DNA of 64,000 bases, taken from positions 3,968,001-4,032,000 of the forward strand of contig NZ_QYUQ01000002.1 of assembly GCF_003590835.1 (NCBI RefSeq), given 5' to 3'. Position 1 is the first letter of the stretch. Each line of letters starts with the position of its first letter. The DNA is from Noviherbaspirillum sedimenti. GTDB taxonomy: Bacteria > Pseudomonadota > Gammaproteobacteria > Burkholderiales > Burkholderiaceae_D. A program made the position numbers and the translations under genes. Below, piece after piece: positions 21,243-64,000 of this stretch. Under the pieces are notes generated by a model that was not told the origin of the DNA, ran no database searches, and saw only the letters and a list, made by a program, of their open reading frames with translations.

Positions 21243-21569
21243 ATGACAGGACGTTTGCAAGGCAAGGTGGCGATCGTGACAGGTGGTGCTTCCGGTATCG
21301 GCGCAGCCTGCTGCCGGCGCTTTTCGGAGGAAGGTGCCCAGGTGGTGTTGACGGAAATCCAGGAGAATCTGGGGCAACGGGTCGCCGCCGAGGTCGGCGG
21401 CTGGTTTGTGCGTCAGGATGTGACCCAGGAGATGACCAATTGCGTCGTGTTCCTGGCCAGCGATGAGTCCAGATTTGTGACGGGCAGCGAACTGCTCGCC
21501 GATGGTGGTTGGCTGGCCGAGGGAGGCATCCGAAACCTGCCAAAGACCGGTGGCGGACAGGCTGCATAG
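21243..21569 (+). pseudogene. Short-chain dehydrogenase with internal in-frame deletion
   Basis: The 108-residue product starts as a normal SDR, MTGRLQGKVAIVTGGASGIG with the NAD(P)-binding GGASGIG motif, and runs to FVRQDVTQE. It then jumps straight to NCVVFLASDESRFVTGSELL, the C-terminal SDR segment that ends in DGG. About 140 residues containing the NNAG motif and the Ser-Tyr-Lys catalytic site are missing, and the frame is kept. It cannot be a working dehydrogenase. ATG at 21243 follows an ACAGGAATT leader. It is probably co-transcribed with the TIM-barrel gene 27 bases on. Confidence 0.8.
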
Positions 21570-21596
21570 CCTGTTGATGAGATTGAAAGGCAGGCT

Positions 21597-22439
21597 ATGT
21601 CACGTTCTCTGGCATTGCATCAAACAACAGTGATGCAATGTTCTCCCCTGGAGTTGGTTGCGATTGCTGCGGAGGTCCGTTGCGACGGCGTCTGCGTGTT
21701 CGTTCAGGTGCCGGCTAAGCCTGGCGCTGGCCGTCCCGCCTTCCCCGTGGTGACGCAAGCCATGCTGCCCGCCATGCGGGCTCGCTTGCGCGACACGGGC
21801 ATCAAGGTCACGAACCTGGAGTATTTCCCCTTGACGCCGGACGTTGCGCTGCAAGAGTACAGGGCGGCGCTGGAACTGGGTGCCGCACTGGGTGCGCAAC
21901 GCGCCGTCACGCATCTGCACGATACCGACGGACGGCGTGGCATCGACAGCCTGGCGCGTTTTGCTGATCTGGCGGCAGAATATGGGCTGGCGGTGGGGCT
22001 GGAATTCGTCGGTCTTTCAGCCGGCTGCCCCAGCCTCGCCAGAGCCCTGCAACTGGTTAGATACGTGGGGCGCGACAACCTGGCTGTGGGCGTCGACCCG
22101 CTGCACCTGCAGCGCACCGGCGGTGCGCCAGTCGACCTGGCCGGCGTGGATCCGCGACTGTTAAGCTATGCACAATTGTGCGATGGCCCGGTCTTGGCCG
22201 ATCCCGGCCAGGCCCTGGAGACGGCGCGCTATGTGGCCGAGGTCTTCGATCGGCTGTCGCCGGGCGAGGGTGTGTTTCCGTTGCGGGAGCTGGTGCAAGT
22301 CTTGCCGCCAGACTTGCCATTCGATGTTGAAGTGCCTGCCCTGCGTTTGAGCGAGTCGGGTATCTCGCCCGTCGAACATGCGCGACGCGCTGTCATGGGC
22401 GCGCGACAGGTGCTGGCAACTGCAGGATTGGGAATCTGA
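21597..22439 (+). CDS. Sugar phosphate isomerase/epimerase-like TIM-barrel protein
   Basis: A 280-residue protein of the xylose-isomerase-like TIM-barrel (AP endonuclease 2) superfamily. Strands such as GIKVTNLEYFPL, RAVTHLHDT and GLAVGLEFVGLSAG, and the metal-region VGVDPLHLQRTGG, are visible. The same DxLHLQR(T/S)GG and SYAQLCD blocks occur in the 41981-42790 protein, so the two are paralogues serving the same cluster. AAGGCAGGCT precedes the ATG. Similar proteins often isomerise or cleave hydroxy- or keto-acid intermediates; the actual substrate is unknown. Confidence 0.8.
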   Translation: MSRSLALHQTTVMQCSPLELVAIAAEVRCDGVCVFVQVPAKPGAGRPAFPVVTQAMLPAMRARLRDTGIKVTNLEYFPLTPDVALQEYRAALELGAALGAQRAVTHLHDTDGRRGIDSLARFADLAAEYGLAVGLEFVGLSAGCPSLARALQLVRYVGRDNLAVGVDPLHLQRTGGAPVDLAGVDPRLLSYAQLCDGPVLADPGQALETARYVAEVFDRLSPGEGVFPLRELVQVLPPDLPFDVEVPALRLSESGISPVEHARRAVMGARQVLATAGLGI

Positions 22440-22534
22440 ACGCAGCGGCGCTGCTACGGACATTTAAGGTGGGTGGCTTCATCTCCGGCGGCCCCGAAGC
22501 CGGAGTTTTCAACATAAACCAAACGGAGATCAAG

Positions 22535-22963
22535 ATGCAAAAAGTACTGCTTCCATTCGATGGCTCGGAGTCCGCCAGGCGGGCGCTTCAATACCTGGTG
22601 ACGGCCGCACGGTCCTACCCTGGACTTGAAGTGCATGTGCTGAACGTACAACCCACCATCATTTTGCACGTTGACTATTTGTCCATGGACATGCTTAAAA
22701 AACTCGATGATGGCGCCCTGCGGCATGGCGCTGAAATCAACGCGGAGGCAATCAAGACATTGACCGCAGCCAACGTCCGCTGCTTCGCGCATGAGACCAT
22801 CGGCGAGGTAATCGGCGAGGTGGGCAAGGCCGTGAAAGACTTGGAGTGCGATACTGTGGTCATGGGCACGCGGGGAATGAGCAATCTCTCCAACCTCATG
22901 CTTGGCTCGGTCGCGTCCCGCGTCGTGCATGAGGTCCTGGTTCCGGTTCTGCTCGTTAAGTAA
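22535..22963 (+). CDS. Universal stress protein (UspA family)
   Basis: A 142-residue single-domain Usp. It opens with MQKVLLPFDGSESARRAL and carries the nucleotide-binding signature GTRGMSNLSNLMLGSVASRV near residue 115, so it is an ATP-binding-type member. CGGAGATCAAG precedes ATG 22535, which is chosen over a longer frame. It is separated from the TIM-barrel gene by 95 bases and is convergent with the aldo/keto reductase 15 bases downstream. Its role is probably general stress tolerance. Confidence 0.9.
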   Translation: MQKVLLPFDGSESARRALQYLVTAARSYPGLEVHVLNVQPTIILHVDYLSMDMLKKLDDGALRHGAEINAEAIKTLTAANVRCFAHETIGEVIGEVGKAVKDLECDTVVMGTRGMSNLSNLMLGSVASRVVHEVLVPVLLVK

Positions 22964-22978
22964 GCCCGCCGAGCATGG

Positions 22979-23941
22979 CTAGCGCCGCGCCGGCGCGCTG
23001 GCCGTGTCCAGCAGCACGAGCTGCTCTGCGCTCAACTGCAATCGCATCGCGCGCATCAGTTCGTCGATCTGGGCTGGCGTGGTGGCGCTGGCGATCGGCG
23101 CGGTGATTCCGGGCTGCGCCATCAACCAGGCCAGCGCGACCTGTGCCTGACTCGCGCCTGTCTGCGTAGTCACGGTATCGAGTGCTGCCAGCACACCGAG
23201 CCCGAAGGGATTGATGTATTTTGCGACCTCTGCACCACGCTGTCGCTCGGACAGGTCTTTCTCGCTGCGGTGCTTGCCAGTCAGGAAGCCGCTTGCCAGC
23301 GCATAAAACGGCACAACGCCGATGTTGTTTTCGATGCAAACCTGTTGCAGCGGACCTTCGAACGTATCGCGCGACAACAGGTTGTAGCGCGGCTGCAGCA
23401 CTTCGTAATGGGCCAGGCCCATGGCACGGCTGATGCTGCGCGCCTCGAGCAGCCGCTCGGCACTGTAATGCGAGGCGCCCACAGCGCGTACCTTGCCGGC
23501 CCGGACCAGATCATCGAACGCTTGCAGCGTTTCATCGAGCGCTACCTCCACATCGTCCAGGTGGGCGAAATAGAGATCGACGTAGTCGGTACGCAATCGC
23601 TGCAGCGAAGCATCGATCGCCTTGAATATGCTACGACGCGACAAGCCGGCCACATCGCCTGTGCCGCGTCCGACCTTGGTGGCGATCAGGATTTTGTCGC
23701 GGCAGCCACGGCTCGCCTGCCATTCGCCGATCATGTTTTCGGACTCGCCACCGACCAGCCCGGGTATCCAGTTGCTGTACATGTCGGCGGTGTCGATCAG
23801 CTTTCCGCCGCCTGCCACGAAGGCGTCGAGGACGGCGAAGCTGCTGTCGCGGTCGGCGGTCCAGCCGAACACGTTACCACCAAGCATAAGCGGTGTAGTC
23901 GAAAGCCCGGTGCGCCCAAGCGGGCGTTCTGCGATGTTCAT
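22979..23941 (-). CDS. Aldo/keto reductase
   Basis: A 320-residue NADPH-dependent aldo/keto reductase. The Asp and Tyr of the tetrad are in LIDTADMYSNW near residue 50, the Lys in KILIATKVG near 85 and the His in DLYFAHLDD near 125. The cofactor region includes GVVPFYALASGFLTGKHR near 205. GGGAGACAGACAGAT precedes the ATG. It is the last gene of the minus-strand arm (23-28.7 kb) and lies 19 bases after the GMC oxidoreductase gene, which places it in the catabolic cluster. It probably reduces a carbonyl intermediate. Confidence 0.9.
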   Translation of the reverse strand: MNIAERPLGRTGLSTTPLMLGGNVFGWTADRDSSFAVLDAFVAGGGKLIDTADMYSNWIPGLVGGESENMIGEWQASRGCRDKILIATKVGRGTGDVAGLSRRSIFKAIDASLQRLRTDYVDLYFAHLDDVEVALDETLQAFDDLVRAGKVRAVGASHYSAERLLEARSISRAMGLAHYEVLQPRYNLLSRDTFEGPLQQVCIENNIGVVPFYALASGFLTGKHRSEKDLSERQRGAEVAKYINPFGLGVLAALDTVTTQTGASQAQVALAWLMAQPGITAPIASATTPAQIDELMRAMRLQLSAEQLVLLDTASAPARR

Positions 23942-23960: not shown

Positions 23961-25574
23961 TTAACGGATCAGGGATGCTGCGTGCCAGGCCAGCGCCATT
24001 GCCGGCGCATTGGTGTTGCCAGAAATCAGGCCCGGCATGACCGAGCAGTCCACCACGCGCACGCCAGTGACTCCACGTACCCGCAATTGCGGATCGCAGA
24101 CATCCTCCTCGCTGCCGCCCATGCGGCAGACGCCGACAGCATGGATGCCGCAACGCGACAGCCGGCGGAACACATCCAGGATTTGTTCGTCGCTGTCGAT
24201 GGTCGCGCCAGGAAATTTTTCATGCTTGAGATGTTTTGCGATCGCCGGTTGCACCATCAATTTGCGGACATAGCGTACTGCGGCAATCGCTGATGCTTCG
24301 TCGGCGGCAGTGGACAGCCAGTTGGGCGCAATGGCCAGCGCGGCGCGGGGATCCCGGCCAGTGATCGCGATGCTGCCCTGGCTTTCGAGATTCAGGAGCT
24401 GCGAGTAAACGGTGAAGCCGGGCTCCCGCTCGACCGAGCCCTGCTGGACCGGCGAGTTGGGATCGCTGTTGGGCTTGGCCTGAAAGGTGAACGCGCTGCC
24501 GAACAGCTGCATGTCCGGGCGTTCCACCTCTGCACGGCTGCGCACGAACGCCCCGACCTCGTAGGGGCCGGTCGCCAGCGGCCCGGTGCGGGTGAGCGCG
24601 TAACGCAAGGCATTCCTGGCGACGCCAAGGCCATAAAATTCACGGTTGTTGCCAGCGATGCCTTGCAGACGGTATTGCATGGAAAAACCGAGGTGCTCGA
24701 GCAGATGGTTGCCGACACCCTGGCGGTCGGCCACAACGGGAATGCCGAGGGAGGACAGCAGGGCGCCTGGCCCGACGCCGGAGCGCTGCAGAATGGCCGG
24801 CGAAGCCATGACGCCAGCCGACAGGATCACCTCGCCTTTGACGATAAAGGAATGGGCGTCTCCATCGATGCGCGTCTCCACCGATACCGCGCGATTCTCC
24901 TTGAAACCGATGCGATCGACCAGCACGCCGGTTTTCACCATCAGGTTGGGGCGCTTGCGCGCAGGCTTCAGAAAGGCCACGGCAGCGCTCTGCCGGCGTC
25001 CCTTCAAGATGTTGTGCGCGTAGTAGCCGATGCCTTCCTGGGCGCCGTTCAGGTCCTCCTTGCGCTCCAGTCCGATGCCTTGACCGGCCGTGATCATCGC
25101 CTCGGCCAGCGGATAGCGATAGGTTCCGGTGCTGATATGCACCGGCCCGCCGACGCCGCGCCCTTCGCCGGCGCCAAGTTCATGGTCCTCGATTGCCTGA
25201 AACGCTGCAGTCATTTCCTTGCGGCCCCAGCCGGTGCAGCCCTTGTGCTCCCATGCGTCATAGTCCTCCAGCTGACCGCGGATCCAGATCATGCCGTTAA
25301 TCGATGAGGAGCCGCCGATCCCTTTGCCGCGCAACCACGACTCGGTTGACGGCAGGTCAGGTTTGCGGCGCTGGGCGACGGGGTAAAACCAGGCATGCCT
25401 GGGATCGGACGCAAGCTTGCCGATACCCTTGGGCATGTGAATCAGCGGGCTGGTGTCAGGCCCGCCAGCTTCCAGCAGCAGTACGCGCTTGTTCGGATTC
25501 GCCGACAATCTTTCTGCCATCACGCAGCCCGACGAGCCTGCACCGACGATGATGTAGTCCCATTGCTCAGCCAT
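23961..25574 (-). CDS. GMC-family FAD alcohol oxidoreductase
   Basis: A 537-residue glucose-methanol-choline family flavoprotein, likely oxidising an alcohol group. The FAD-binding Rossmann motif is WDYIIVGAGSSGCVMAERL at the N-terminus. The GMC signature GKGIGGSSSINGMIWIRG is near residue 85. The C-terminal catalytic part has CGIHAVGVCRMGG near 480 and SVMPGLISGNTNAPAMALA near 515. Its start codon overlaps the end of the upstream flavoprotein gene by eight bases, so the two are translationally coupled. No signal peptide; cytoplasmic. Confidence 0.92.
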   Translation of the reverse strand: MAEQWDYIIVGAGSSGCVMAERLSANPNKRVLLLEAGGPDTSPLIHMPKGIGKLASDPRHAWFYPVAQRRKPDLPSTESWLRGKGIGGSSSINGMIWIRGQLEDYDAWEHKGCTGWGRKEMTAAFQAIEDHELGAGEGRGVGGPVHISTGTYRYPLAEAMITAGQGIGLERKEDLNGAQEGIGYYAHNILKGRRQSAAVAFLKPARKRPNLMVKTGVLVDRIGFKENRAVSVETRIDGDAHSFIVKGEVILSAGVMASPAILQRSGVGPGALLSSLGIPVVADRQGVGNHLLEHLGFSMQYRLQGIAGNNREFYGLGVARNALRYALTRTGPLATGPYEVGAFVRSRAEVERPDMQLFGSAFTFQAKPNSDPNSPVQQGSVEREPGFTVYSQLLNLESQGSIAITGRDPRAALAIAPNWLSTAADEASAIAAVRYVRKLMVQPAIAKHLKHEKFPGATIDSDEQILDVFRRLSRCGIHAVGVCRMGGSEEDVCDPQLRVRGVTGVRVVDCSVMPGLISGNTNAPAMALAWHAASLIR

Positions 25575-27318
25575 GGCTGCCTTTTTTCATTGATTGGACG
25601 GGTTGTGCCGTGGTTTCGGCTGCGGCCAGATGCTTGCCTGCAATGTAGCCCAGTGTCATGCCGGGGCCGAGCGTACCGCCAGCGCCTGCGTAACCACCCG
25701 ATACGAAGCTGAGCGCATCGTTGCCGGCGGCGTAAAGGCCGGGAATCGGCGCGCCATCCTGCGCCACCACACGCGCATTGCCATCGGTGCGGATGCCGGC
25801 GAAATTGCCGATATCGCCCGGCACAAGCTTGAGGGCGTAGAAGGGGCCAACGTCGAGCGGAGCAATGTTCGGGTTCGGCTTATGATCGGGGTCGCCCTGC
25901 GAGTGGTCATAGATGTTGCCGCCGCGGCCGAATTCCGGGTCGACGCCTTTGTGGGCATGTTCATTGAAGCGCGCGACCGTCCGCTCGAACTGGGCCGCAT
26001 CGATGCCGGCCTGTTGCGCGAGATCCGATAGCGTTTCGCCGCGCAGGATGTAGCCGGAGCGCACATGCTGGCCGTTTGGCACTGGCGCAGGCTTGACGAA
26101 GCCGAGGCCGTAGCGCCTGATGGCGCGGTGATCGCAGATCAGGTAGCAGAATGTTTGGGGTAGATGCTCGCAGGCCTTGACCATCGCCGGCACGAAGTCA
26201 TGGTAGGGCGCGGCTTCGTCGAAGAAGCGTTTTCCCTCGCTGGTGACGGCGATGAAACCAGGCTTCTGGCGGTCGACGATGTGCGGCCACAAGCTCTTGG
26301 GACCCTGGTAGTACGGGATGACCGAGATCGGCATCCATGCGGACGGTTGCTGCACAGCGGTGTCAACCCAGCCGCCCGCGGACTCCGCCAGCCGGGCGCC
26401 GTCGCCGGTGTTGCTGGGGTTGGCAAGGCTGCGATGCTCGCGCCCGGCTGCCTTGTGCGGATATACCTTGGCAGTGCGCGCCGCGTCATGCGGAAAGCCG
26501 CCGCTGGCCAGCACCACGCCCTTGCGCGCCATGACCCGTACGCGGCCCTGCTGCGTCTGGACCTCGGCGCCTTCAACCCTGCCATCGACAAAGACCAGTT
26601 CCTTGGCGGGTGCGTTCAGCCAGAGCTCGATGCCGCAGTCGAATGCCGAGCGGGACAGGCGTGCGATGAGCGCGCGGCCGCGCGTCACCGGATCGGGCTT
26701 GCCATAGCGGAGCACGTCCCTGAATACGCCGCCGAATTTGCGGAGCACGAAAGCGAGGCCCTTGAGCGAACGGCCGGCGCTCATGAGCTGTTTCATCTCC
26801 ACGTTGGAGCCGACCGCCAAGCCCATGAAATTGGTTTGCGTCAGCCCCTGGCGCAGCAACTTTCGGTACTTGCCGAGCCGCCAGGCTTCGTAATCCTTGG
26901 TGCCGATCGAGCGAACCGTGGCATGGCCTGGATAGGAAGGATGGTAGTCGGGATAGGAAAACGGATAGCATTCGAGCTCGGTCTCGCGTTCCAGGAAGTC
27001 GATCATTTCGGGCCCGTTGGCCAGAAAGGCGTCGACCCGCTCGGCATCGAAATACTCGCCGGCTTCCTGCGCGATGTAGGTGCGGGCCTGCTTCAGCGAA
27101 TCCGGTCCGAGCGAGGCGGAATGCCGGTTACCCGGGATCCACATGACGCCGCCCGAAAAGCAGCTGGTGCCGCCGTACACTGCATCCTTTTCGACCATCA
27201 GCACTTCGAGTCCCTGCTTGCGAGCGGTGATCGCGGCCGTAAATGCGGCGGCGCCACTGCCGACAACCAGAACATCGACTTGCTTGATGGCGGTCGTTCC
27301 TGCAGTAGTTGAATTCAT
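25567..27318 (-). CDS. FAD-dependent KstD-like dehydrogenase (cytoplasmic)
   Basis: A 583-residue flavoprotein of the fumarate reductase / 3-ketosteroid-delta1-dehydrogenase superfamily. It has the FAD motif VDVLVVGSGAAAFTAAITA at residues 14-32 and MVEKDAVYGGTSCFSGGVMW just after. The C-terminal GLYAAGNDALSFVSGGYAGAG segment carries Tyr543 and Gly547, matching the Tyr-x3-Gly of the KstD active site. No signal peptide. AGGAGACAGA precedes the ATG. It probably introduces a double bond next to a carbonyl on a ring or acyl chain. It forms one unit with the GMC oxidoreductase, whose start overlaps its stop. Confidence 0.85.
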   Translation of the reverse strand: MNSTTAGTTAIKQVDVLVVGSGAAAFTAAITARKQGLEVLMVEKDAVYGGTSCFSGGVMWIPGNRHSASLGPDSLKQARTYIAQEAGEYFDAERVDAFLANGPEMIDFLERETELECYPFSYPDYHPSYPGHATVRSIGTKDYEAWRLGKYRKLLRQGLTQTNFMGLAVGSNVEMKQLMSAGRSLKGLAFVLRKFGGVFRDVLRYGKPDPVTRGRALIARLSRSAFDCGIELWLNAPAKELVFVDGRVEGAEVQTQQGRVRVMARKGVVLASGGFPHDAARTAKVYPHKAAGREHRSLANPSNTGDGARLAESAGGWVDTAVQQPSAWMPISVIPYYQGPKSLWPHIVDRQKPGFIAVTSEGKRFFDEAAPYHDFVPAMVKACEHLPQTFCYLICDHRAIRRYGLGFVKPAPVPNGQHVRSGYILRGETLSDLAQQAGIDAAQFERTVARFNEHAHKGVDPEFGRGGNIYDHSQGDPDHKPNPNIAPLDVGPFYALKLVPGDIGNFAGIRTDGNARVVAQDGAPIPGLYAAGNDALSFVSGGYAGAGGTLGPGMTLGYIAGKHLAAAETTAQPVQSMKKGSHG

Positions 27319-27355: not shown

Positions 27356-28723
27356 TCAGGACGTCAGCTTTGGCTGGAATTCGGCATGCGTGGCCGGATT
27401 GAAATCCGGGTCGTCATGATCGAACGGACTGATGGCATGACGGCGCGGCCACAGCAAGGTGGCAGCCACGATGGACATCAGCACGAACAATGCTGGGTAA
27501 AACGCCGGGTAGTCCAGTGAAAAGCGCGCCAGATAAGTCAGGACGATCAGCGCGGTGCCGCCGAAGATGGCGATCGGAATGTTGTAACAAGTCGCCAGTC
27601 CTGTATAGCGGATTTGTGCGGGGAATGCCCTGGCAAGAAAGGTCAGCGACAAGCCCATCGAGGCGCCGGCGCTCAATCCAAGGAAAATGGCCGGCAGCCA
27701 CAGTCCGTCCACTGTATCCTGGCTGAACATCCAGAACATGCAGATGACCGTGCACAACTGCATCAGCAGGTAGCCATTGCGCAGGTTAAAGACACGCCAT
27801 GACACCAGCATGCCGCCGAGGATATTCCCCATTCCCGAAAAGGTCAGCATGAGGGTCAGGATGGTCGAGACTTCCGCCATGGGAAGCTTCTTCATGGTGA
27901 CGAAGTAGGTGATCGGAAATTGCTGTGTTGCCGCTGCCACGATGGTGGTGCAGGCAGCCAGGAACATGGCGCCGATCAGGTTGAACCGGTGCTTCGACAT
28001 CATTTCCGCAAAGGGGGGGCGCTCCGACAGCATCATTTTTGCCTTCATGGCTTCGAAGACCGACGTTTCATGGGTGAATCGGCGCAGGTAAACCGACAGC
28101 ACGCCAAAGATGCCGCCCATGATAAAGGGGATGCGCCAGCCATAGTTCATCATGGCTTCCGCACCCAGCATATGGGTAAGCCCGCTGACGACTGCTGAGC
28201 CCGCAAGTGAGCCAGTGCTCGTTGCAGCGGCCATGATGCCGAGAGCAAAGGCAACTTTGCGGCCGCTGACCTGCTCGGACACGAAACTGATCGCGCCAGG
28301 CAACTCACCGCCGAGCGAAATGCCCTGTGCCAGGCGACACAGCAGCAGCAGGATCGGCGCCCAGATGCCGATGACCGCATAGCCAGGCAAGATGCCGATG
28401 ACCAGCGTGGGGCCGGCCATCAAGGCGAGCGTCAGCGTGAAGATGCGCTTGCGGCCAACCCGGTCGCCGATCTGGGCCATGATGATGCCGCCGACGGGGC
28501 GGATCAGGAAGCCGGCGGCAAAGATGCCGAAAGTCTGGATCAGGCGCAGCCATTCCGGCATGTCGGGCGAGGAAAAGTGCCGGCTGATCTGCGGGGCCAG
28601 AAAAACAAAGATGATAAATTCGAAATACTCGAGCATGCTGCCGAGCGAAGCGACGCCCAATGCCTTGAATTGTTCGCGGCGATTGGCGGGAGGCAGTTTA
28701 TCTGCCGTGGATTTCTGCTGCAT
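27356..28723 (-). CDS. MFS transporter, metabolite:H+ symporter type
   Basis: A 455-residue major facilitator protein with about 12 membrane helices, closest in pattern to the metabolite:H+ symporter branch (ProP/KgtP-like). It opens with ALGVASLGSMLEYFEFIIFVFLA, then has the loop motif AQIGDRVGRKRIF between helices 2 and 3 near residue 86, and LCRLAQGISLGGELPGA near 130, which is typical of this branch. CAGGAGTGAGAC precedes the ATG. It leads the minus-strand arm and probably imports the growth substrate or a derived acid. Confidence 0.9.
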   Translation of the reverse strand: MQQKSTADKLPPANRREQFKALGVASLGSMLEYFEFIIFVFLAPQISRHFSSPDMPEWLRLIQTFGIFAAGFLIRPVGGIIMAQIGDRVGRKRIFTLTLALMAGPTLVIGILPGYAVIGIWAPILLLLCRLAQGISLGGELPGAISFVSEQVSGRKVAFALGIMAAATSTGSLAGSAVVSGLTHMLGAEAMMNYGWRIPFIMGGIFGVLSVYLRRFTHETSVFEAMKAKMMLSERPPFAEMMSKHRFNLIGAMFLAACTTIVAAATQQFPITYFVTMKKLPMAEVSTILTLMLTFSGMGNILGGMLVSWRVFNLRNGYLLMQLCTVICMFWMFSQDTVDGLWLPAIFLGLSAGASMGLSLTFLARAFPAQIRYTGLATCYNIPIAIFGGTALIVLTYLARFSLDYPAFYPALFVLMSIVAATLLWPRRHAISPFDHDDPDFNPATHAEFQPKLTS

Positions 28724-31814: not shown

Positions 31815-31991
31815 CTTTAGCAGCAGGCAGCATAAGCAGCGAGTAGTAGCGGGGGAGTAGCGGTGCAGCCGTAACATTCGCCCGAGTAAGTGTCGGACCA
31901 CCAGGTGTACAAACGCAGGGTTGCCCGGATTTTAATCACAATTGAGATAAATTAATTCAAGATGAGCCAATTCGACAGGAGACAAAAAGTG

Positions 31992-53308: not shown

Positions 53309-53698
53309 ATGCGCATGTCCAGGATCTGCTCGGCACTGCTGCTGAGCCTGTTCGCCAGCAGCTGCCTGGCCCAGGCCGTCAGTTTCAAGAAAAACGTGCT
53401 GCCGGTGTTCCAGCGCAATTGCCTCGCCTGCCATGTGACCGGGGAGGAGCAGGGCGGCCTCGGCCTGATGCCGAAGCTGGCATACAAGAGCCTGGTCGGC
53501 AAGCCCTCGCTGCAGAGCGGTCTGCCGCGGGTGGCGCCGCGTGAGCCCGAGCGCAGCTACCTGTTGCACAAGCTGCGTGGCACGCATCTGGATCAGGGCG
53601 GCTCTGGCGCGCGCATGCCGCTGGGCCTGCAGCCATTGGGCGATGAAGAGATGGCGCAGATCGTTGCCTGGATCGCCGCCGGCGCGCCAAACAACTAA
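53309..53698 (+). CDS. Secreted monohaem c-type cytochrome
   Basis: A 129-residue protein with a Sec signal peptide (MRMSRICSALLLSLFASSCLAQA). One haem site, NCLACH, lies about 40 residues in, with the surroundings VLPVFQRNCLACHVTGEEQGG. The likely distal methionine is in SGARMPLGLQPL near residue 105. The body resembles the planctomycete-type (PSCyt) cytochrome domain. AAGGAG lies nine bases before ATG 53309; ATG 53315 is also possible. It sits between the exported flavoprotein and an MFS gene and is the obvious electron acceptor for that flavoprotein. Confidence 0.85.
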   Translation: MRMSRICSALLLSLFASSCLAQAVSFKKNVLPVFQRNCLACHVTGEEQGGLGLMPKLAYKSLVGKPSLQSGLPRVAPREPERSYLLHKLRGTHLDQGGSGARMPLGLQPLGDEEMAQIVAWIAAGAPNN

Positions 53699-57341: not shown

Positions 57342-58736
57342 ATGCTGAACAAGAATCGCATTCCGGCGACCGAATTCGAGGTTGCCCGCTGTCCGTCCCT
57401 GAGCGTGCAAGACATCATCCGCAACGATGGCGATCAGGCCCCGGCAATGGCTCAGGAGCATTATCGCTTTCTCGGTAACGAGGACATCCCCTTCGAGCGC
57501 TACACATCCCGCGACTTCTACGAACTGGAGATGAAGTCTCTGTGGACCAAGACGTGGCAATGGGCCTGTCGCGAGGAGCATATTCCCATGCCTGGCGATT
57601 ACTACGTATATGACATTGGGCAGTACTCGGTTCTTGTGGTGCGCACCCAGAGCGGCGACGTTCGGGGATATATCAATTCCTGTCTTCACCGGGGCACCAA
57701 GCTGAAACCGTCAGCAACCGAGGGCCACACTAAAGAGCTGCGCTGTCCATTTCATGGCTGGTCCTGGGATCTGGACGGCAATCTTAAGCACCTTCCGTGC
57801 GAGTGGGATTTCAAATACATCGACCAGAGCCAGCATCAGCTTCCGCAAGTGAAGGTGGGAATCTGGGGTGGGTTCGTGTTCATCAACCTTGACCCCGATG
57901 CGATGCCGCTGGAGGAGTACCTCGATGTATTGCCGGAGCATGCCCGCAGTACCGCGCTGGAAGACCGCTATGTCGCGGCCCACATTGAAAAGGAGCTGCC
58001 CTGCAATTGGAAGATTGCCTCGGAGGCATTCCTGGAGTCCTATCATGTTCTGGAGACGCATCCCCAGATGATGCCCGCCAATGGCGACATCAACTCGCAG
58101 TACGATATTTTTGGCGACCACGTTAATCGGGTTTACGTGGCGAACGGCGTGAAGAGCCCCAATATCACCCGCGACGTCAGCGAGCAGGAGCTCCTGGATG
58201 CGATGCTGGTCGGTGACGGGAGTGGTGACGGCGAGCGGTTGATGGTGCAGCCAGGCATGTCGGCGCGTCAAGTGATGGCCGATCACTTCCGCCAGAATCT
58301 GCGGGAGCATTATGGGACTGACAGCTCCGCGCTCTCCACCACCGAAGTTCTGGACACCATTGGTTACTTCGTTTTTCCCAATGGCCACTTCTTCCTCGGT
58401 TTGGCGTTTCCGATTGCCTATCGCTTCCGTCCTCTGGGGGACGACCACCAGAAGTGCCTGTTTGATGTTCTGGTCCTTCAGCCGCTGAAGAAGGGCGAAT
58501 CTCGTCCGGAGCCCGCAGTGCCGGTGCGGCTCAAGGTCGAGGAGTCCTATACCCAGGCACCTGGTCTGAGTGCCCAGGTCGGCCACATACTGGATCAGGA
58601 TACCAACAACATGCGGTATCAGCAGGAAGGGATGGCCACCAGTCGGAAGGCCAAGGCGTCCCTGGCAACCTATCAGGAAGTCCGAATTCGTCACATCCAC
58701 CAGGTGATCGATAAGTATCTGGGAATGCAGGGTTAA
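57342..58736 (+). CDS. Rieske [2Fe-2S] oxygenase, large subunit (module 2, first)
   Basis: A 464-residue ring-hydroxylating oxygenase alpha subunit. Rieske ligands are Cys114-x-His116 (SCLHRGTK) and Cys135-x2-His138 (CPFHGWSW). The mononuclear iron site is FLESYHVLETH, with Glu at the bridging position as in the 29404 protein, to which it is clearly related (shared WDFK, HPQ and QEVRIRHxHQ segments). AGAGGAGACTC precedes the ATG. No beta subunit is present. The second Rieske gene follows 28 bases later. It probably hydroxylates or demethylates the cluster's substrate. Confidence 0.92.
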   Translation: MLNKNRIPATEFEVARCPSLSVQDIIRNDGDQAPAMAQEHYRFLGNEDIPFERYTSRDFYELEMKSLWTKTWQWACREEHIPMPGDYYVYDIGQYSVLVVRTQSGDVRGYINSCLHRGTKLKPSATEGHTKELRCPFHGWSWDLDGNLKHLPCEWDFKYIDQSQHQLPQVKVGIWGGFVFINLDPDAMPLEEYLDVLPEHARSTALEDRYVAAHIEKELPCNWKIASEAFLESYHVLETHPQMMPANGDINSQYDIFGDHVNRVYVANGVKSPNITRDVSEQELLDAMLVGDGSGDGERLMVQPGMSARQVMADHFRQNLREHYGTDSSALSTTEVLDTIGYFVFPNGHFFLGLAFPIAYRFRPLGDDHQKCLFDVLVLQPLKKGESRPEPAVPVRLKVEESYTQAPGLSAQVGHILDQDTNNMRYQQEGMATSRKAKASLATYQEVRIRHIHQVIDKYLGMQG

Positions 58737-58764
58737 AAAACAGACCGAATTGGAGAGATGGCAT

Positions 58765-60117
58765 ATGGACAAGAAATTCGATGAGCGTGTAACCATCATT
58801 GCCCGCAACGGTAGCACCTGGACCGAGCCCGCAGTCATGGATGGTGGCACCAGCGAAATGCTACGGGGTGATGTGATTTCCGGAGACCGGTACTGGTCGC
58901 GCGAATTCATGCAAAAGGAGTGGGACCACATGTGGTCCCGGGTTTGGCATATCGGCGCGCGCGTGGCCGAGCTGATGGAGCCCGGTGACTATGTCGTGCA
59001 TAACTTCATGCAGGAGTCCGTGCTGCTTGTGCGTCAGGACGACGACAGCATCCGGGCCTTCTACAACGTCTGCCCCCATCGCGGCAACCGGCTGGTCTGG
59101 GGCGATGCAGGAGGCATGAAAAAATTCTCCTGTGCCTACCACGGTTGGGAGTTTAGCAAGAATGGACAACTTCAGCATGCACCCGATCCGGAGAACTTCC
59201 GCAAGGGCAGTCCCTGCGGCAAAGTCACTTTGGTCGAACTGAAATGTGAAGTTTGGGGCGGATTCGTCTGGTACAACATGGATCCGGAAGCCAAGTCCTT
59301 GCTGGAGTATCTGGACCCGCTGCCGAAGCATTTCGCCAATCGCGAACTCGACAAAATGAAGCGCATCGTCTGGCGCAAGGTCGATGTCAATTGCAACTGG
59401 AAGTTCGCCTCGGACAACTTCAACGAGTCCTATCACGTCCGCATCGTGCATCCGACTATGGGCGTCTACGTCGTGGAGGATTACAGTGGGCACACCTTCG
59501 AGATGTATGCCAACGGCCATAACCGCGCATTGGAGCTGGGGCAGCCGTCCTCTCGTTTCATCACGCAAAACGATTATTGGGAGAGCTTGTTAAAGGCCTG
59601 GAAGCTGGATCCGGCTGTATACGCCGGGTGCGCAGCGGAGGCGCGTCTGGCCCTGCAGGCGCAGAAACGGAAATTGGGGCCAGCGCGCGGGCATGAATAC
59701 ATGGCGAAGCTGACCGACGACGAGCTGACGGACTTCTTCCACTACACCGCCTTCCCGAACCTGACCATCACCGGCACCCCGATGGACGGCGCAGTGCACA
59801 TCTTCCGTACCGAACCTCATCCCACCGATCCGGAAAAGTGCACTTTTGAATACTGGGGGCTCTATCCGGAGATCAAGGGCGCCGAAACGATTCCGACGGT
59901 TTCCGGGCCGCGCCCATGGGAAGAAGCCGAGCCGGAAATCCTCACCTATGGCATCGACGAGGTCGGCGACTTTATCGATGAGGATCTGAGTGTGGCGGTG
60001 AACCAGCAGAAGGGCTTGCATTCCCGGGGGTATCGCGACGCCATATTGTCTGAGCAAGAAGCCCGCGTGCGCCGCTTCCATGAGGTTCTCAACGATTACA
60101 TCGCCGACCGGCGTTAG
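58765..60117 (+). CDS. Rieske [2Fe-2S] oxygenase, large subunit (module 2, second)
   Basis: A 450-residue oxygenase alpha subunit of a different subgroup from its neighbour. Rieske ligands are in NVCPHRGNRL near residue 108 and CAYHGWEF near 128. The mononuclear iron region is SDNFNESYHVRIVHPT near 220, keeping the Asn and both His residues. ATG 58765 behind GGAGAGATGGCAT is chosen over an in-frame TTG. It lies 17 bases before the Rieske ferredoxin gene. Two unlike alpha subunits in tandem suggest two sequential oxygenations, not one alpha-beta enzyme. Confidence 0.9.
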   Translation: MDKKFDERVTIIARNGSTWTEPAVMDGGTSEMLRGDVISGDRYWSREFMQKEWDHMWSRVWHIGARVAELMEPGDYVVHNFMQESVLLVRQDDDSIRAFYNVCPHRGNRLVWGDAGGMKKFSCAYHGWEFSKNGQLQHAPDPENFRKGSPCGKVTLVELKCEVWGGFVWYNMDPEAKSLLEYLDPLPKHFANRELDKMKRIVWRKVDVNCNWKFASDNFNESYHVRIVHPTMGVYVVEDYSGHTFEMYANGHNRALELGQPSSRFITQNDYWESLLKAWKLDPAVYAGCAAEARLALQAQKRKLGPARGHEYMAKLTDDELTDFFHYTAFPNLTITGTPMDGAVHIFRTEPHPTDPEKCTFEYWGLYPEIKGAETIPTVSGPRPWEEAEPEILTYGIDEVGDFIDEDLSVAVNQQKGLHSRGYRDAILSEQEARVRRFHEVLNDYIADRR

Positions 60118-60636: not shown

Positions 60637-61416
60637 ATGATAGGAAAGTTATTGCAAGATAAGGTGGCAATCGTGACCGGAGCAGCGCAGGGCATGGGTG
60701 CAGCGACCGCGAGGCTTTTCGCGGAACAGGGTGCGCATGTGGTCGTCGCTGACATGAACGAGCAGGAGGGTTGTGCGGTAGTCGCTGAAATTCAATCTGC
60801 GGGCGGGACGGCCTTTTTCCACAAGGTGAATGTCTCCATCAGCAGCGAAGTGGCACGAATGGTCGAGGTGACAGTGGGACGCTTCGGGCGCCTGGACGTG
60901 GCTGTCAATAATGCTGCTGTTAGCCCGGATACAAAGCCGTTGGCCGAAATGGATGAGGCGGAATTTGACAAGGTCATTGCCGTCGACCTGAAAGGGGTGG
61001 CGCTGTGCCTTAAATATGAGTTGGCGCAATTGATACGTCAGGGGCAGGGTGGATCAATCATCAATATTGGCTCGGTTAGCTCTTTCCGCCCACAGCCGAA
61101 CACCCCGGTTTATGTCGCGGCCAAGCATGGCGTAATCGGTTTGACCAAGGTGGCGGCGCTCGAGAACGGCATTCATAACATTCGGGTCAATGCGGTCGCG
61201 CCGGGTGGAATCGATACACCGATGTTGCGCAACTTCTTTGCATCTGCCGGCGCGACGCAATCGGACGAGGCTGCTTATGCTTCGGCGCTAAGTCTTCTCG
61301 GTCGCTTTGGTGAAGCGACCGAGGTGGCGCAGGCAAGTCTTTGGCTGGCATCCGATCTGGCATCGTATGTCACAGCCACGACGATCAACGTCGACGCGGG
61401 ATACATTAATCGCTGA
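60637..61416 (+). CDS. Short-chain dehydrogenase/reductase
   Basis: A 259-residue classical SDR with TGAAQGMGAATAR near residue 15, NNAAVSPDTKP near 91, catalytic Ser in NIGSVSSFRP near 145 and Tyr-x3-Lys in VYVAAKHG near 158. The Asp after the second beta strand (VVVADMNEQE) predicts NAD+ preference. It is the last gene of module 2 and probably oxidises an alcohol or cis-diol made by the Rieske enzymes. Its start region is AT-rich (19 of 60 bases at 60601-60660 are G or C). Confidence 0.9.
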   Translation: MIGKLLQDKVAIVTGAAQGMGAATARLFAEQGAHVVVADMNEQEGCAVVAEIQSAGGTAFFHKVNVSISSEVARMVEVTVGRFGRLDVAVNNAAVSPDTKPLAEMDEAEFDKVIAVDLKGVALCLKYELAQLIRQGQGGSIINIGSVSSFRPQPNTPVYVAAKHGVIGLTKVAALENGIHNIRVNAVAPGGIDTPMLRNFFASAGATQSDEAAYASALSLLGRFGEATEVAQASLWLASDLASYVTATTINVDAGYINR

Positions 61417-61562
61417 AGGGGCGTTGATCGTAAAAAACTAAACTGCATCGGCTGCAATGATGCGATTAGCCAGGGAGCGTAGTCTGACCACGGCTGCGTA
61501 TCCCTGAACCACAAATTCGTTGCCAACGATATTTGTTCAATCCATAAATGAAGGAGACATGC

Positions 61563-62927
61563 ATGAATCCAATGATGAGATATGCCCCGATTGCTTTGCT
61601 GCTGGGGTCGGCAAGCCTGGCACAGGCACAGCCAGGCGATGTGAAGCAACTTGGCAGCACCCTGACTTCCTGGGGGGCGATTGCGGCCGGCAACGCCGAC
61701 GGCACGATCCCTGCCTACACGGGCGGCCTGACCACGCCGCCGGCCAATTACAACAAGGCCAATCCGGGCTGGCGCCCGGACCCGTTCCCGAACGACAAGC
61801 CGCTGGTAAAGATCGACGCCAGCAACATGGAGAAGTACAAGGACAAGCTGAGCCCGGGCACAATGGAAATGATGAAGAAGTACCCGAGCTTCTACATTGA
61901 AGTCTTCCAGACCCGTCGCACGGCGGCATTCCCCAAGAGCTTCCATGAAAACTCGATCAAGAATGCCACGCGCTGCAAGACCATCAACGAAGGCAATGGG
62001 CTGGATACTTCCACCGGCTGCGGCCATGGCATTGCCTTCCCGATTCCGAAGAACGGCATCGAAGCCATGTGGAGCCATGCCACCCGCTATCGCACTCCGG
62101 CCTACTACATCAAGAACGTAACCGGCCTGTTCGTCAAGCCGAACGGTGAAATGGTGAAGACCTACGCCGGACATGCCTATCGCGGCTGGGACTTCTACGA
62201 CCCTGCCCAGCCCAATCCGGACCGCTACTATTCGTACAGCTATGAATATAACGCGCCGACCCGCCTGGCAAGCAACTCGACCGCCGTCTTTGACGATCTG
62301 AAGACCGGCGATCGCACGGGCTACGATTACAGCCCGGCGACCCGCCGCGTCCGCCTTTCTCCGGACAGCTCGGGCGATACTCCGGTGGGACCACTGGGCG
62401 GCGCCATGACCTTCGACGAAGACCAGCTTTTCGCCGGCAAGAAGGATCGCTTCGATTGGAAGCTGGTCGGCAAGCAGGAAATGTATATCCCCTACAATAA
62501 CTATCGCTTCCAGTACCCCGACGCGAACGGCGAGTGCGCGGGAGACAAGCGTTTCGTTCCTTTTCACCTGAACCCGAAATGCGTACGCTGGGAACTGCAC
62601 CGCGTCTGGCATATTCGTGGCACGCTAACGGAGGGGAAGCGTCATATCTTCAAGCAACGCGACATGTATGTGGATGAAGATAGCTGGGGCGATGGCATGT
62701 CCGACAACTATGACCACAACGGCAAGCTGTTCCACGTCAACCAGCAAATCGGTGCGCCGCTGTACGATGCGCCGGCTCCGGCTGCAACCGACAACATGGT
62801 GATTGACATGATCTCGGGCGTTTACGGTTGGTCGGGATCATGGGATGGTTTCTATTTGACCGAGGCCTGGCCGCGCTCCAAATTCGCGCCGGACTTACTC
62901 GTCAACAAGAAGATCGTCCTCAAGTAA
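61563..62927 (+). CDS. DUF1329 family envelope protein (copy 2)
   Basis: A 454-residue close paralogue of the 33577 protein, with a signal peptide (MNPMMRYAPIALLLGSASLAQA) and the same NADGTIPAYTGGLTTPPANY, NPDRYYSYSYEY, YSPATRRVRLSP and YNNYRFQYPDANGECAG blocks. The most divergent parts are around residues 105-150 and at the C-terminus (SGSWDGFYLTEAWP). AAGGAGACATGC precedes ATG 61563. It stands alone, without a DUF1302 partner, but the downstream hairpin is related to that of copy 1. It may carry a different product or serve the second Rieske module. Confidence 0.88.
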   Translation: MNPMMRYAPIALLLGSASLAQAQPGDVKQLGSTLTSWGAIAAGNADGTIPAYTGGLTTPPANYNKANPGWRPDPFPNDKPLVKIDASNMEKYKDKLSPGTMEMMKKYPSFYIEVFQTRRTAAFPKSFHENSIKNATRCKTINEGNGLDTSTGCGHGIAFPIPKNGIEAMWSHATRYRTPAYYIKNVTGLFVKPNGEMVKTYAGHAYRGWDFYDPAQPNPDRYYSYSYEYNAPTRLASNSTAVFDDLKTGDRTGYDYSPATRRVRLSPDSSGDTPVGPLGGAMTFDEDQLFAGKKDRFDWKLVGKQEMYIPYNNYRFQYPDANGECAGDKRFVPFHLNPKCVRWELHRVWHIRGTLTEGKRHIFKQRDMYVDEDSWGDGMSDNYDHNGKLFHVNQQIGAPLYDAPAPAATDNMVIDMISGVYGWSGSWDGFYLTEAWPRSKFAPDLLVNKKIVLK

Positions 62928-62949
62928 GCGAAGGCTGATCGCCATGTAA

Positions 62950-62985
62950 CCGGGCAGGGCGCCATGTGCGTCTTGCCCGGTTTTT
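62950..62985 (+). terminator. Intrinsic terminator after DUF1329 copy 2
   Basis: CCGGGCAGG (62950-62958) pairs with CTTGCCCGG (62972-62980), with one G-U pair, and is followed directly by TTTTT (62981-62985). It is homologous to the hairpin after copy 1, which lacks the T-run. Confidence 0.8.
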
Positions 62986-63026
62986 GCGTGTCGGCGTGAT
63001 GCTGGATTGGCTAGTGTGGCAAAAAA

Positions 63027-63055
63027 AAAGGGGGGCGCAAGGCCCCCCTTTTTCA
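63027..63055. terminator. Bidirectional intrinsic terminator
   Basis: AAAAAGGGGGGC (63027-63038) and GCCCCCCTTTTT (63044-63055) form a perfect 12-base repeat with a 5-base loop and A/T runs on both sides. It separates the convergent DUF1329 and ferredoxin reductase genes. Confidence 0.85.
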
Positions 63056-63092
63056 TGTCTGGTCGGCGCGGTGACGCGCGGCATCCGCCTGG

Positions 63093-64000
63093 TCAGGGTA
63101 TGGCCAGCGCGGCATCCTTGGCCTTGATGGCCATGTTGGCAAGCCTGTCCGCACACACGAGCGCCTGGCTGAGAATGAACTGCTTGCCGGCGATGAAATC
63201 CAGTGGCGAGTTGATTGCTTCGACTGCCATCACCTGCTCGCCCCGCAGATGATAGACGGCGAATTTTGACTGCTCGGGTGCGCCGCGCACCACCTGGCGG
63301 TCGGCGTCGAACGGCAGGCCGGCGATCTGCAGCTTGATATCGTACTGGTCCGACCAGAACCACGGCACCTCGGCGGCCGGGCGTGGCTTGCCGACGATGG
63401 CGCAGGCGACCTGGCGCGCCTGTTCCAGCGCGTTCGGCACGCTCTCCAGGCGAAACATCCTGTCGCCATAGACTGGCAATGGGCGCCAGCTCAGATCGCC
63501 GATGGCGAAGATGGCAGGATCGCTGGTGCGCGCATCCTGGTCGACCATGACGCCGTTCTCGCAGTGCAGGCCGGCGGCGCGCGCCAGTTCGTCGCGTGGC
63601 AGCGCGCCGACGCCAACCACGGCGACATCGCAGGCCAGGCGTCGGTCATCCTCCAGATGCACCGCCGTCACATGGTCGTCGCCTTCGAAATGGCTGAGAT
63701 TGGCGTTGCGAATGATCTGCACGCCTTGCTGCTGGTGGATGCGTTCGTAGAACGTTGCCAGCGGCTCGCTGGCAACCCGCGCCAGCAGTCGCGCTTCGCG
63801 CTCGACGACGGTAACCTCCATGCCGAGGGCGCGCGCCGAGGCCGCCACCTCCAGCCCGACATAGCCGCCGCCGACGATGGCCAGGCGGCGTCCTGGCTGC
63901 AGTGCGCTCTTGAGGCGCGCGGCATCGTCGATGCCGCGCAGCGTGAGAATATTCGCCAATCCTGCGCCGGGAATGGCAAGCTGCCGCGGCCGCGCGCCGG
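63093..64000 (-). CDS. Ferredoxin reductase, BphA4-type (partial, runs off right edge)
   Basis: About 302 C-terminal residues of a NAD(P)H/FAD ferredoxin reductase of the BphA4/ThcD type. The frame is open to base 64000 (GARPRQLAIPGAGLANILTL at the edge), so the FAD-binding N-terminus lies outside. Visible are the NAD-binding LAIVGGGYVGLEVAASARALG, the FAD-binding AIFAIGD segment and the family-specific VPWFWSDQYDIKLQIAGLP. It can supply electrons to the Rieske ferredoxin at 60135 and so to the three oxygenases. It is convergent with DUF1329 copy 2. Confidence 0.9.
   Translation of the reverse strand, partial: GARPRQLAIPGAGLANILTLRGIDDAARLKSALQPGRRLAIVGGGYVGLEVAASARALGMEVTVVEREARLLARVASEPLATFYERIHQQQGVQIIRNANLSHFEGDDHVTAVHLEDDRRLACDVAVVGVGALPRDELARAAGLHCENGVMVDQDARTSDPAIFAIGDLSWRPLPVYGDRMFRLESVPNALEQARQVACAIVGKPRPAAEVPWFWSDQYDIKLQIAGLPFDADRQVVRGAPEQSKFAVYHLRGEQVMAVEAINSPLDFIAGKQFILSQALVCADRLANMAIKAKDAALAIP

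Follow-up and report, generated by a model that had tools for sequence, protein, structure and literature searches.

A composite gene island of Noviherbaspirillum sedimenti that may serve the aerobic degradation of hydrophobic alicyclic compounds

Castellaniella defragrans carries a 70-kb monoterpene island (ctm, mrc and geo genes), for which the consulted parts of the source describe an oxygen-independent route with a proposed BadI-like ring hydrolase (PMC4109377). In strain 65Phen of this species, deletion of ameABCD lowers growth on monoterpene hydrocarbons, and AmeD is assigned to the HAE3 family in the sections at hand of the corresponding report (PMC6394551). For the cyclohexanone dehydrogenase (CDH) of Alicycliphilus denitrificans, represented by the structures 8am3, 8am6 and 8am8, the available text names Tyr195, Tyr376, Tyr570, Gly574 and the FAD-linked Cys305 (PMC10966990). 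Here, a stretch of 64,000 nucleotides of N. sedimenti was compared with these systems (bases 3,968,001-4,032,000 of contig C2 in a genome of 5.04 Mb and 4 contigs, hereafter the window), together with two further stretches downstream, L009 and L010, L009:1093 being window position 63093. An initial annotation, made from the letters of the window, had proposed one catabolic supercluster with a dedicated envelope transport module from position 21243 to the window end. Judged from its gene content, this block is somewhat better explained as part of a composite aerobic catabolic island for a hydrophobic alicyclic compound, likely a terpenoid-type cyclic alcohol or ketone and perhaps of plant origin, than by other readings taken together.

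In order to find related loci, the named genomes were scanned with the CoA ligase of the block, which gave 61 loci. A ligase with 81% identity and a matching neighbourhood was present in two of them, Massilia niastensis and Aromatoleum toluvorans Td21, for which 60 and 80 kb around the ligase gene were examined. The core of the block is collinear over ~40 kb in both islands. The shared order starts with the CoA ligase, two acyl-CoA dehydrogenases (ACADa, ACADb), the short-chain dehydrogenase SDR1, the flavoprotein KstD2, cytochrome c, MFS2 and ApbA, and continues on the opposite strand with the ferredoxin reductase, MFS3, ThuA and SDR3. Then follow the Rieske oxygenase alpha subunit RO4, the quinone oxidoreductase QOR, DUF1302, DUF1329, YCF48, RND, a NIPSNAP-fold protein, VOC and XI2, after which come TetR3 (Aromatoleum only), RO5, E1a, E1b, E2, SDR4, SDR5, ferredoxin and hydratases, and finally EamA, TetR, ThuA2, Crp, aldolase and HD. 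Core identities range from 52% (DUF1302) to 90% (E1b). The gene block is more than a chance assembly, since its long open reading frames (ORFs) match curated families and collinear orthologues occur in two other genera.

No close counterparts of GMC, KstD1, OYE1, OYE2, RO2, RO3 or the aldo/keto reductase (AKR) were found in the stretches examined of either island, and the aldehyde dehydrogenase of the N. sedimenti island has no close counterpart either (Aromatoleum lacks one, and the 36% match of Massilia lies away from the block). A single supercluster is thus upheld for the core, the segments of which stay together in both relatives, whereas a single pathway for all the genes is not, the accessory genes being without counterparts there. 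In the remaining 59 ligase loci, of which many belong to Achromobacter, Acidovorax, Cupriavidus and Bordetella, the ligase is often accompanied by a TctC gene, ACADs and hydratases; with flanks of up to 10 kb, these loci showed no match to the Rieske oxygenases or KstD2, and the ligase-ACAD unit therefore also exists by itself.

The genes at and to the right of the left edge of the island are given below. Gene calls came from a codon-bias script, and families from a Pfam scan of 60 proteins and an NCBIfam scan of 20 (63 distinct proteins, a subset of the ORFs); for RO4, SDR4 and SDR5, the class was assigned from similarity and from a search of the whole genome for Rieske proteins. "Both islands" refers to Massilia and Aromatoleum.

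18843..19013, minus strand: C-terminal fragment (57 residues) of a Crp-type regulator, a left-edge remnant; tblastn 86% to the intact gene, DNA 87% over 175 bp
19692..21044, minus: thiolase (PF00108/PF02803); 74-78% homologue by the Aromatoleum CoA ligase, none in the Massilia stretch
21225..21569, plus: internally deleted SDR of 114 aa with two Pfam stretches; 55% identity to SDR4 over 63 N-terminal residues, directly followed by a C-terminal piece matching SDR3 214-246
21597..22439, plus: XI1, xylose-isomerase-like TIM barrel (PF01261); 37% to XI2
22979..23941, minus: aldo/keto reductase (PF00248)
23961..25574, minus: GMC oxidoreductase, accessory (PF00732/PF05199); 62% homologue in the Novosphingobium resinovorum pHR1a cluster
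25567..27318, minus: KstD1, 3-ketosteroid-dehydrogenase-like flavoprotein, accessory (FAD_binding_2); 50% homologue in the pHR1a cluster
27356..28723, minus: MFS1 transporter (Pfam); 77% DNA identity to the downstream MFS3
29404..30783, plus: RO1, Rieske alpha (PF00355+PF00848); duplicate of RO4 (L009:5685-7064), 87% protein, 89% DNA
30804..31814, plus: QOR, zinc-type quinone oxidoreductase (Pfam); 78-81% in both islands
31962..33539, plus: DUF1302 outer-membrane protein, AmeA-like (PF06980, E 2e-99)
33577..34944, plus: DUF1329 periplasmic protein, AmeB-like (PF07044); N terminus signal-peptide-like by eye
35042..36124, plus: YCF48-like periplasmic protein, AmeC-like (PF14870); hydrophobic N-terminal segment
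36126..38630, plus: RND transporter of HAE3 type, AmeD-like (PF03176); start codon at 36126, just past the YCF48 stop
38947..39285 (ORF 38884-39285), plus: protein of 112 aa with predicted NIPSNAP fold; 68-71% in both islands
39341..41305, plus: OYE1, FMN ene-reductase type, accessory (PF00724+PF07992); unmatched in the stretches of both islands
41403..41981, plus: GLO, VOC protein (PF13669); 67-71% in both islands
41981..42790, plus: XI2, xylose-isomerase-like TIM barrel (PF01261); distant to dehydroshikimate dehydratase
42827..44800, plus: OYE2, FMN ene-reductase type, accessory (Oxidored_FMN/Pyr_redox); 1ps9 dienoyl-CoA reductase E 1e-62; in Aromatoleum only a 28% match, outside the island
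45023..45808, plus: TetR1 (PF00440); 94% DNA to TetR4, at 81517-82341 in joined coordinates
45979..48162, plus: NDP-forming acyl-CoA ligase (PF13549/PF13607/PF13380); 81% in both islands
48205..49392, plus: ACADa, PimD-like acyl-CoA dehydrogenase; best model TIGR03203, below cut-off; 74% and 68% in the islands
49205..50560, plus: ACADb, PimC-like acyl-CoA dehydrogenase; best model TIGR03204, below cut-off, from residue 62, the ORF start being probably too early
50557..51402, plus: SDR1; 75-78% in the islands, 62-66% homologues in four sphingomonad plasmid loci
51540..53285, plus: KstD2, cyclohexanone-dehydrogenase-type flavoprotein with a Tat-like leader (FAD_binding_2)
53282..53698, plus: c-type cytochrome (PF00034) with CLACH motif, adjoining KstD2
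53721..55058, plus: MFS2 transporter (Pfam); 77-78% in both islands
55098..56057, plus: ApbA, ketopantoate-reductase-like (Pfam); 76-79% in both islands
56462..57040, minus: TetR2 (Pfam)
57342..58736, plus: RO2, Rieske alpha, accessory (Pfam); on pNL2, the KstD2 unit holds a 48% homologue
58750..60117, plus: RO3, Rieske alpha, accessory (Pfam); 57% homologue directly by KstD2 on pNL2
60637..61416, plus: SDR2 (Pfam); 57% homologue by KstD2-cytochrome c on pNL2
61548..62927, plus: second DUF1329 protein (PF07044), 77% to the 33577..34944 copy
63093..63998, past the window end (L009:1093-2328), minus: ferredoxin reductase (PF07992+PF14759); 71-73% in both islands

The Pfam scan bore out nearly all of the families recognised initially, namely GMC, QOR, the two FMN ene-reductase types, the NDP-forming CoA ligase, the ACAD pair, the SDRs, the two TetRs and the envelope set in its order. 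Cytochrome c, VOC, the XI2 TIM barrel, the ketopantoate-reductase-like protein and two MFS transporters had been missed. A split QuiC made of XI2 and GLO was considered and kept as a weak lead only (QuiC model 46 bits for a cut-off of 1200; 5hmq E 1e-9).

The cluster does not stop with the window. It continues to about L010:3524, so that its right boundary at the window end is an artefact, and the start at 21243 corresponds to the SDR remnant with its deleted middle. We infer an island of ~67 kb, from ~18.8 kb in the window to L010:3524 (~21.5 kb past the window end), of which the gene block in the window (21243..64000) makes up about two thirds. Downstream lie MFS, ThuA, SDR, RO4, RO5, TetR and the genes of a 2-oxo acid dehydrogenase (E1 alpha, E1 beta, E2), followed by two SDRs, a 2Fe-2S ferredoxin, two enoyl-CoA hydratases, the aldehyde dehydrogenase, an EamA transporter and TetR. 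The last genes are the second ThuA, the intact Crp-type regulator (L010:1308-2057, minus strand; cNMP_binding and HTH_Crp_2), a class II aldolase and an HD-domain protein. Past this right end stand genes which, from their translations, we take to be ETF-ubiquinone oxidoreductase-like (ETF-QO-like) and transhydrogenase-like.

Several genes occur twice within the island, with DNA identities of 89% (RO1/RO4), 94% (TetR1/TetR4), 78% (the two DUF1329 genes) and 77% (MFS1/MFS3). As the examined stretches of the Massilia and Aromatoleum islands hold one RO4-type gene and one such TetR each, the form found in the window is rearranged and partly doubled. The island is composed of a conserved core with duplicated and imported modules.

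The distribution of the island was followed in samples of 96 other genomes of the family, 398 of the order and 397 of the phylum, the two island bearers not being among them. KstD2 had no match at E ≤1e-60 in the family set, which included three congeners, and none at E ≤1e-150 in the order set; RO4 at E ≤1e-110 was absent from the order set and was found in one genome (G811) of the phylum sample. Massilia and Aromatoleum sit in different NCBI orders, as read from the lineages of their congeners. The same gene order thus occurs in two other genera, while the three congeners lack KstD2; this sporadic distribution, together with the 65-90% identity of its enzymes to Aromatoleum, suggests that the island was probably acquired horizontally.

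An empty-site test with the flanking genes was confounded by paralogues. The gene at 16914-18833, adjoining the left edge, has three more near copies elsewhere in the genome (87-91% identity), one of which (3792462) lies close to another Rieske/DUF1302 region; the relatives in congeners reach ~35-42% only. The ETF-QO-like gene by the island (C2:4054061) belongs to 9 genome matches at E ≤1e-100, the other eight being 79-96% identical to it, and five congeners have 1 to 3 matches (the three being fragments in one draft). A gene of electron transfer has thus been amplified in this genome, which is rich in catabolic clusters.

A key enzyme of the core is KstD2. Among solved structures, it comes nearest to 8am8, 8am3 and 8am6 (E 9e-113 to 7e-112), whereas the 3-ketosteroid dehydrogenase 4c3x is matched at E 2e-38; a textbook 3-ketosteroid dehydrogenase was therefore rejected for this protein in favour of the CDH type. 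Of the two flavoproteins initially called KstD-like, only KstD1 retains the name, with a strong match to the solved 3-ketosteroid dehydrogenase 7p18 (E 5e-86) and alignment of the tyrosines and glycine that presumably form the 7p18 active site. A residue survey was made on 120 listed database proteins of the KstD2 type, that of the window included. Tyr195, Cys305, Tyr376, Tyr570 and Gly574 are identical in all 120, and so is the gating Trp, matched by its motif (113 in the paper, position 115 of the printed chain). Of the other two gate residues, Phe496 is kept in 119, and at the Tyr415 position 93 of the proteins have Phe, 26 Tyr and one His. A twin-arginine-like motif stands within the first 40 residues of 101 of the proteins. 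The pair of KstD2 and cytochrome c was also found in Massilia, Aromatoleum, pNL2 and ES2-1. Because the CDH-type residues are kept, a Tat-like motif is present and a c-type cytochrome is adjacent, KstD2 is probably a periplasmic cyclic-ketone desaturase, which would give its electrons to the cytochrome. If the core is one pathway, this family comprises ring desaturases of interest for biocatalysis. A paralogue of KstD2 (40%) lies at C2:2896758-2898428; in its vicinity are a DUF1302 gene with a weak match and a distantly related RND gene (28%).

The three Rieske proteins of the window proved to be alpha-only, as had been proposed: the beta subunit (PF00866) was matched at two places of the genome, both more than 1.4 Mb away. 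In the whole genome, 15 places match the catalytic domain of Rieske alpha subunits, and five of these subunits belong to the island. The best model was glycine betaine monooxygenase for RO2 and RO5, and 3-phenylpropionate dioxygenase for RO3, with betaine monooxygenase second, all far below their cut-offs; the best structure matches of RO3 and RO5 were carnitine monooxygenases. For the lead Rieske oxygenase, the protein collection contains 995 or more close homologues (E ≤1e-150, among the 8000 best candidates that were scored). As for the electron donors announced for the window, the reductase is present and runs past its end, whereas the ferredoxin is not: the Fer2 ferredoxin of the cluster lies at L009:14938-15264, 13 kb beyond the window. 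The ORF 38884-39285, taken for a ferredoxin, has two cysteines and no Pfam or NCBIfam match. Its AlphaFold model (mean pLDDT 84, on an alignment of three sequences) is matched best by Foldseek with the NIPSNAP proteins 5ixu (E 3.6e-6), 2ap6 and 1vqs. NIPSNAP proteins have a ferredoxin-like fold without iron-sulphur cysteines. On pHR1a, a gene annotated as 'putative quinol monooxygenase' (L101:31601-31957) adjoins the RO5 homologue, and the NIPSNAP-fold protein has no tblastn match there.

The genes for DUF1302, DUF1329, YCF48-like and RND proteins are adjacent in the order of AmeABCD (31962-38630). The best NCBIfam model of the RND protein is HAE3, TIGR00921 (137 bits, below the cut-off of 352), and its hydropathy shows two membrane blocks and two large loops. 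The RND protein was matched in 39 plasmid records (E ≤1e-80). Three of the four plasmid loci examined around related RND genes gave no Rieske, ThuA or E1 match; the fourth, in Diaphorobacter, has a Rieske alpha gene (38% to RO2) and E1a/E1b (33%, 44%), with an RO1 type at 41% on the same plasmid, ~40 kb from the RND locus. Conversely, the four genes were found beside RO1 homologues in none of the 12 sphingomonad plasmid loci considered below. Since most of the RND loci examined had no Rieske match and none of the RO1 loci had the cassette, the latter can be said to accompany the catabolism of hydrophobic compounds frequently, in some cases together with Rieske genes, and the term "dedicated" has to be dropped. 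It accompanies several pathways and should not be read as a substrate marker, RO1-type loci existing without it. The N. sedimenti genome has a second cluster bearing Ame-type genes (C2 ~3,755,000-3,790,000), with an SDR1 homologue (67%), four VOC, three Rieske alpha, ferredoxin and reductase genes. DUF1302 is matched at 12 places in the genome, two of which are parts of one apparently split copy (C2:1510762-1512389, profile positions 300-541 and 3-295 in neighbouring parts).

RO1 was also compared with plasmids. It was matched in 19 records, and all 12 with at least 53% identity were examined by tblastn over ~20-25 kb per side (one over 27 kb in all), absence meaning absence within these stretches; tblastn recounts were used for gene presence, ORF tables having missed genes hidden under overlapping ORFs. 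Two near-duplicate pairs (two N. humi, two Croceicoccus) make the independent cases fewer than 12. ThuA was present in 10 of the 12, right beside the RO1 homologue in 9, E1a with E1b in five and E2 in four. TonB receptors were annotated in 7 of 8 annotated stretches, and genes for methylmalonate-semialdehyde and 3-hydroxyisobutyrate dehydrogenases in 2 of 8. The fullest locus, on pHR1a, combines homologues of KstD1 (50%), GMC (62%), RO1 (60%), RO3 (39%), RO5 (58%), ThuA (58%), SDR1 (63%), E1b (61%), ACADb (60%) and the aldolase (50%), which argues that some accessory genes of the window belong to this chemistry. On pNL2, homologues of RO1, RO2, RO3, KstD2, GMC and E1/E2 lie within 41 kb. In addition, G811 holds RO4 (52%), RO5 (44%), SDR1 (53%), ThuA (51%), ACADb (46%) and VOC (45%) within 32 kb. 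The 96-kb plasmid of Novosphingobium humi strains (NZ_CP117419.1, NZ_CP103870.1) carries, in the parts examined, RO1-ThuA, E1/E2, valine-type degradation genes, ETF-QO and a very large gene for an Ig-like protein.

A pathway for a hydrophobic cyclic substrate, as proposed from the start, is the most natural reading of these data. In the scheme that we consider, the order of the steps and the substrate being guesses, the AmeABCD-type cassette would handle the hydrophobic alicyclic compound at the envelope. Its hydroxylation would fall to the alpha-only Rieske oxygenases, with electrons supplied through the reductase and the ferredoxin, and SDR/GMC enzymes would make ring ketones. KstD2, exported by the Tat system, may then introduce a ring double bond, its electrons passing to the adjacent cytochrome c. 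The TIM-barrel, VOC, ThuA, NIPSNAP-fold and class II aldolase proteins could share in rearrangement and ring opening. The opened acid would be activated by the NDP-forming CoA ligase and shortened by the PimC/PimD-like pair, enoyl-CoA hydratases and thiolase, while the lipoate-dependent E1/E2 2-oxo acid dehydrogenase may take a 2-oxo acid or alpha-ketol fragment. The PimC/PimD-like dehydrogenases, by their best models (below cut-off), suggest a ring-opened, possibly dicarboxylic acid.

The terpenoid lead comes from the Ame precedent, the CDH-type dehydrogenase, the PimC/PimD-like pair and the isobutyrate-type genes in the two plasmid loci; methylmalonate-semialdehyde and 3-hydroxyisobutyrate dehydrogenases fit an isopropyl-bearing substrate. 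As a part of the overall reading, a p-menthane-like or other isopropyl-bearing terpenoid is accordingly a tentative candidate, which taken by itself we hold to be less probable than not. A broader proposal, which we regard as speculative and rather doubtful, is a so far undescribed aerobic, non-aromatising route that recurs in beta- and alphaproteobacteria. In it, RO4/RO5-type alpha-only Rieske oxygenases, ThuA-fold, VOC and SDR1 proteins, in some cases with a thiamine/lipoate 2-oxo acid dehydrogenase, would open an isopropyl-bearing alicyclic terpenoid; a periplasmic, cytochrome-linked desaturase of cyclic ketones would be optional, and entry at the outer membrane could be through either an Ame cassette or a TonB receptor. 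Provided that the core is a single pathway, it would represent a recurring degradation route for cyclic compounds.

Several observations weigh against the terpenoid-type island and its transfer. Ame-type RND proteins are common, so the cassette says little on terpenes. Among the 12 RO1 loci, the RO5 type (at least 36%) is present in two, seven have no E1 in the stretch, a close KstD2 (52%) with cytochrome c is found in one, and several hold little beyond RO1, ThuA and SDRs (e.g., N. capsulatum, among photosynthesis genes). In G811, neither E1/E2 nor the Ame cassette was found in the 32 kb, a stretch which ends at a contig end. The Tyr415 of CDH is mostly Phe in the listed KstD2-type proteins, and in Aromatoleum EbN1 ACADs come after the KstD2 homologue (54%), whose listed neighbours include no cytochrome. 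The 3-hydroxyisobutyrate dehydrogenases of the plasmids were not matched by tblastn in the window with the next 28 kb, nor in the examined stretches of the two islands, the aldehyde dehydrogenase matches of the same search being of general types only (~30%). The E1/E2 proteins score below the cut-offs of their best models. The substrate is read from the genes themselves, and transfer from distribution, no insertion junction or empty site having been established. Finally, as both islands are without close OYE1, OYE2, GMC, KstD1, RO2 and RO3, the window need not serve one pathway.

This last point leads to the main alternative, in which two or more separately regulated pathways stand side by side, comprising the core and the GMC-KstD1-AKR, OYE and RO2-RO3-SDR2 modules. 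Besides the accessory genes without close counterparts in the islands, it draws on the compact unit which, on pNL2 and in ES2-1 of Novosphingobium, comprises RO2/RO3-like oxygenases with VOC, KstD2, cytochrome c and SDR, and on the several TetR genes and one Crp regulator, which suggest more than one regulon. However, pHR1a joins KstD1 and GMC with RO1, RO5, ThuA and E1/E2 homologues, an OYE2 homologue (51%) lies 0.9 kb from the RO1 homologue in Novosphingobium PP1Y, and pNL2 unites in its 41 kb the genes named above; the modules thus recur round an RO1-type oxygenase, and we consider separate pathways to be improbable, though a serious competitor.

A divergent steroid-type cluster (bile acid, sterol or resin acid) appears quite unlikely. 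The closeness of KstD1 to the 3-oxosteroid 1-dehydrogenase 7p18 would agree with it, so that a steroid-type marker is, by sequence, visible after the initial statement to the contrary; GMC and the SDRs also fit, and paired ACADs occur in steroid routes too. The accompanying statement on extradiol enzymes was supported, no TesB/HsaC-type extradiol dioxygenase family being found among the 60 Pfam-scanned proteins. Moreover, the two closest islands have no close KstD1, and their FAD dehydrogenase of this type is KstD2, whose closest match acts on a six-membered ring ketone. Even less probable is aromatic or lignan O-demethylation, with the Rieske proteins as demethylases and the rest as side-chain chemistry. 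The betaine and carnitine monooxygenase matches of RO2, RO3 and RO5 are what recommends it, but all the model scores are far below cut-offs, and KstD2 with the PimCD-like pair points to alicyclic chemistry. No formaldehyde-handling or aromatic ring-cleavage gene was seen among the scanned proteins, no search by name having been made.

Apart from the island, the window contains a separate gene set on the minus strand (211-8913) with a TctC receptor, MmgE/PrpD, DUF2889, a type III CoA transferase, an HpcH/HpaI lyase, an acyl-CoA dehydrogenase, an enoyl-CoA hydratase and an acetyl-CoA hydrolase/transferase, and a LysR gene at 9349. This set is possibly for a branched dicarboxylate.

The catabolic island can finally be set against the known systems. 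No published description of its gene order, nor of a function for the sphingomonad RO1/ThuA clusters, was found in the open-licence PubMed Central literature, which is weak evidence. The sphingomonad plasmid clusters (N. resinovorum pHR1a, N. aromaticivorans pNL2, N. humi, Sphingobium TomTYG65) all have the RO1 type, with varying RO3, RO5, ThuA, SDR1, ACADb and E1/E2, and on pNL2 KstD2 with cytochrome c; they differ from the island by the absence of the Ame cassette, by TonB receptors and by another gene order. With the Alicycliphilus CDH, KstD2 shares 39% identity over 554 aligned residues, the four catalytic residues, the FAD-linked Cys and a Tat-like leader; in N. sedimenti the cytochrome c gene comes after KstD2. 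The AmeABCD system of Castellaniella, as far as its report was available, has the same families in the same order and a place within a catabolic island for hydrophobic compounds, the comparison being one of family and order; HAE3, the family of AmeD, is the best model of the N. sedimenti RND protein, though below its cut-off. N. sedimenti has an extra DUF1329 copy, and export by its cassette is predicted (PMC6394551).

The closest characterised system found is the Castellaniella monoterpene island. According to the parts of its paper that were consulted, it shares with ours the Ame cassette, a dienoyl-CoA reductase, an NADH:flavin oxidoreductase, ferredoxin, ferredoxin reductase and acyl-CoA dehydrogenases, and it resembles Thauera/Azoarcus more than its own family. 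Its entry chemistry is oxygen-independent, the word 'Rieske' appearing nowhere in the main text, whereas that of N. sedimenti would be Rieske-based, with five alpha subunits (PMC4109377). The enzymes described here belong to known families; together they form a probably transferable catabolic island, putatively of terpenoid type, with a recurring Rieske/ThuA element.

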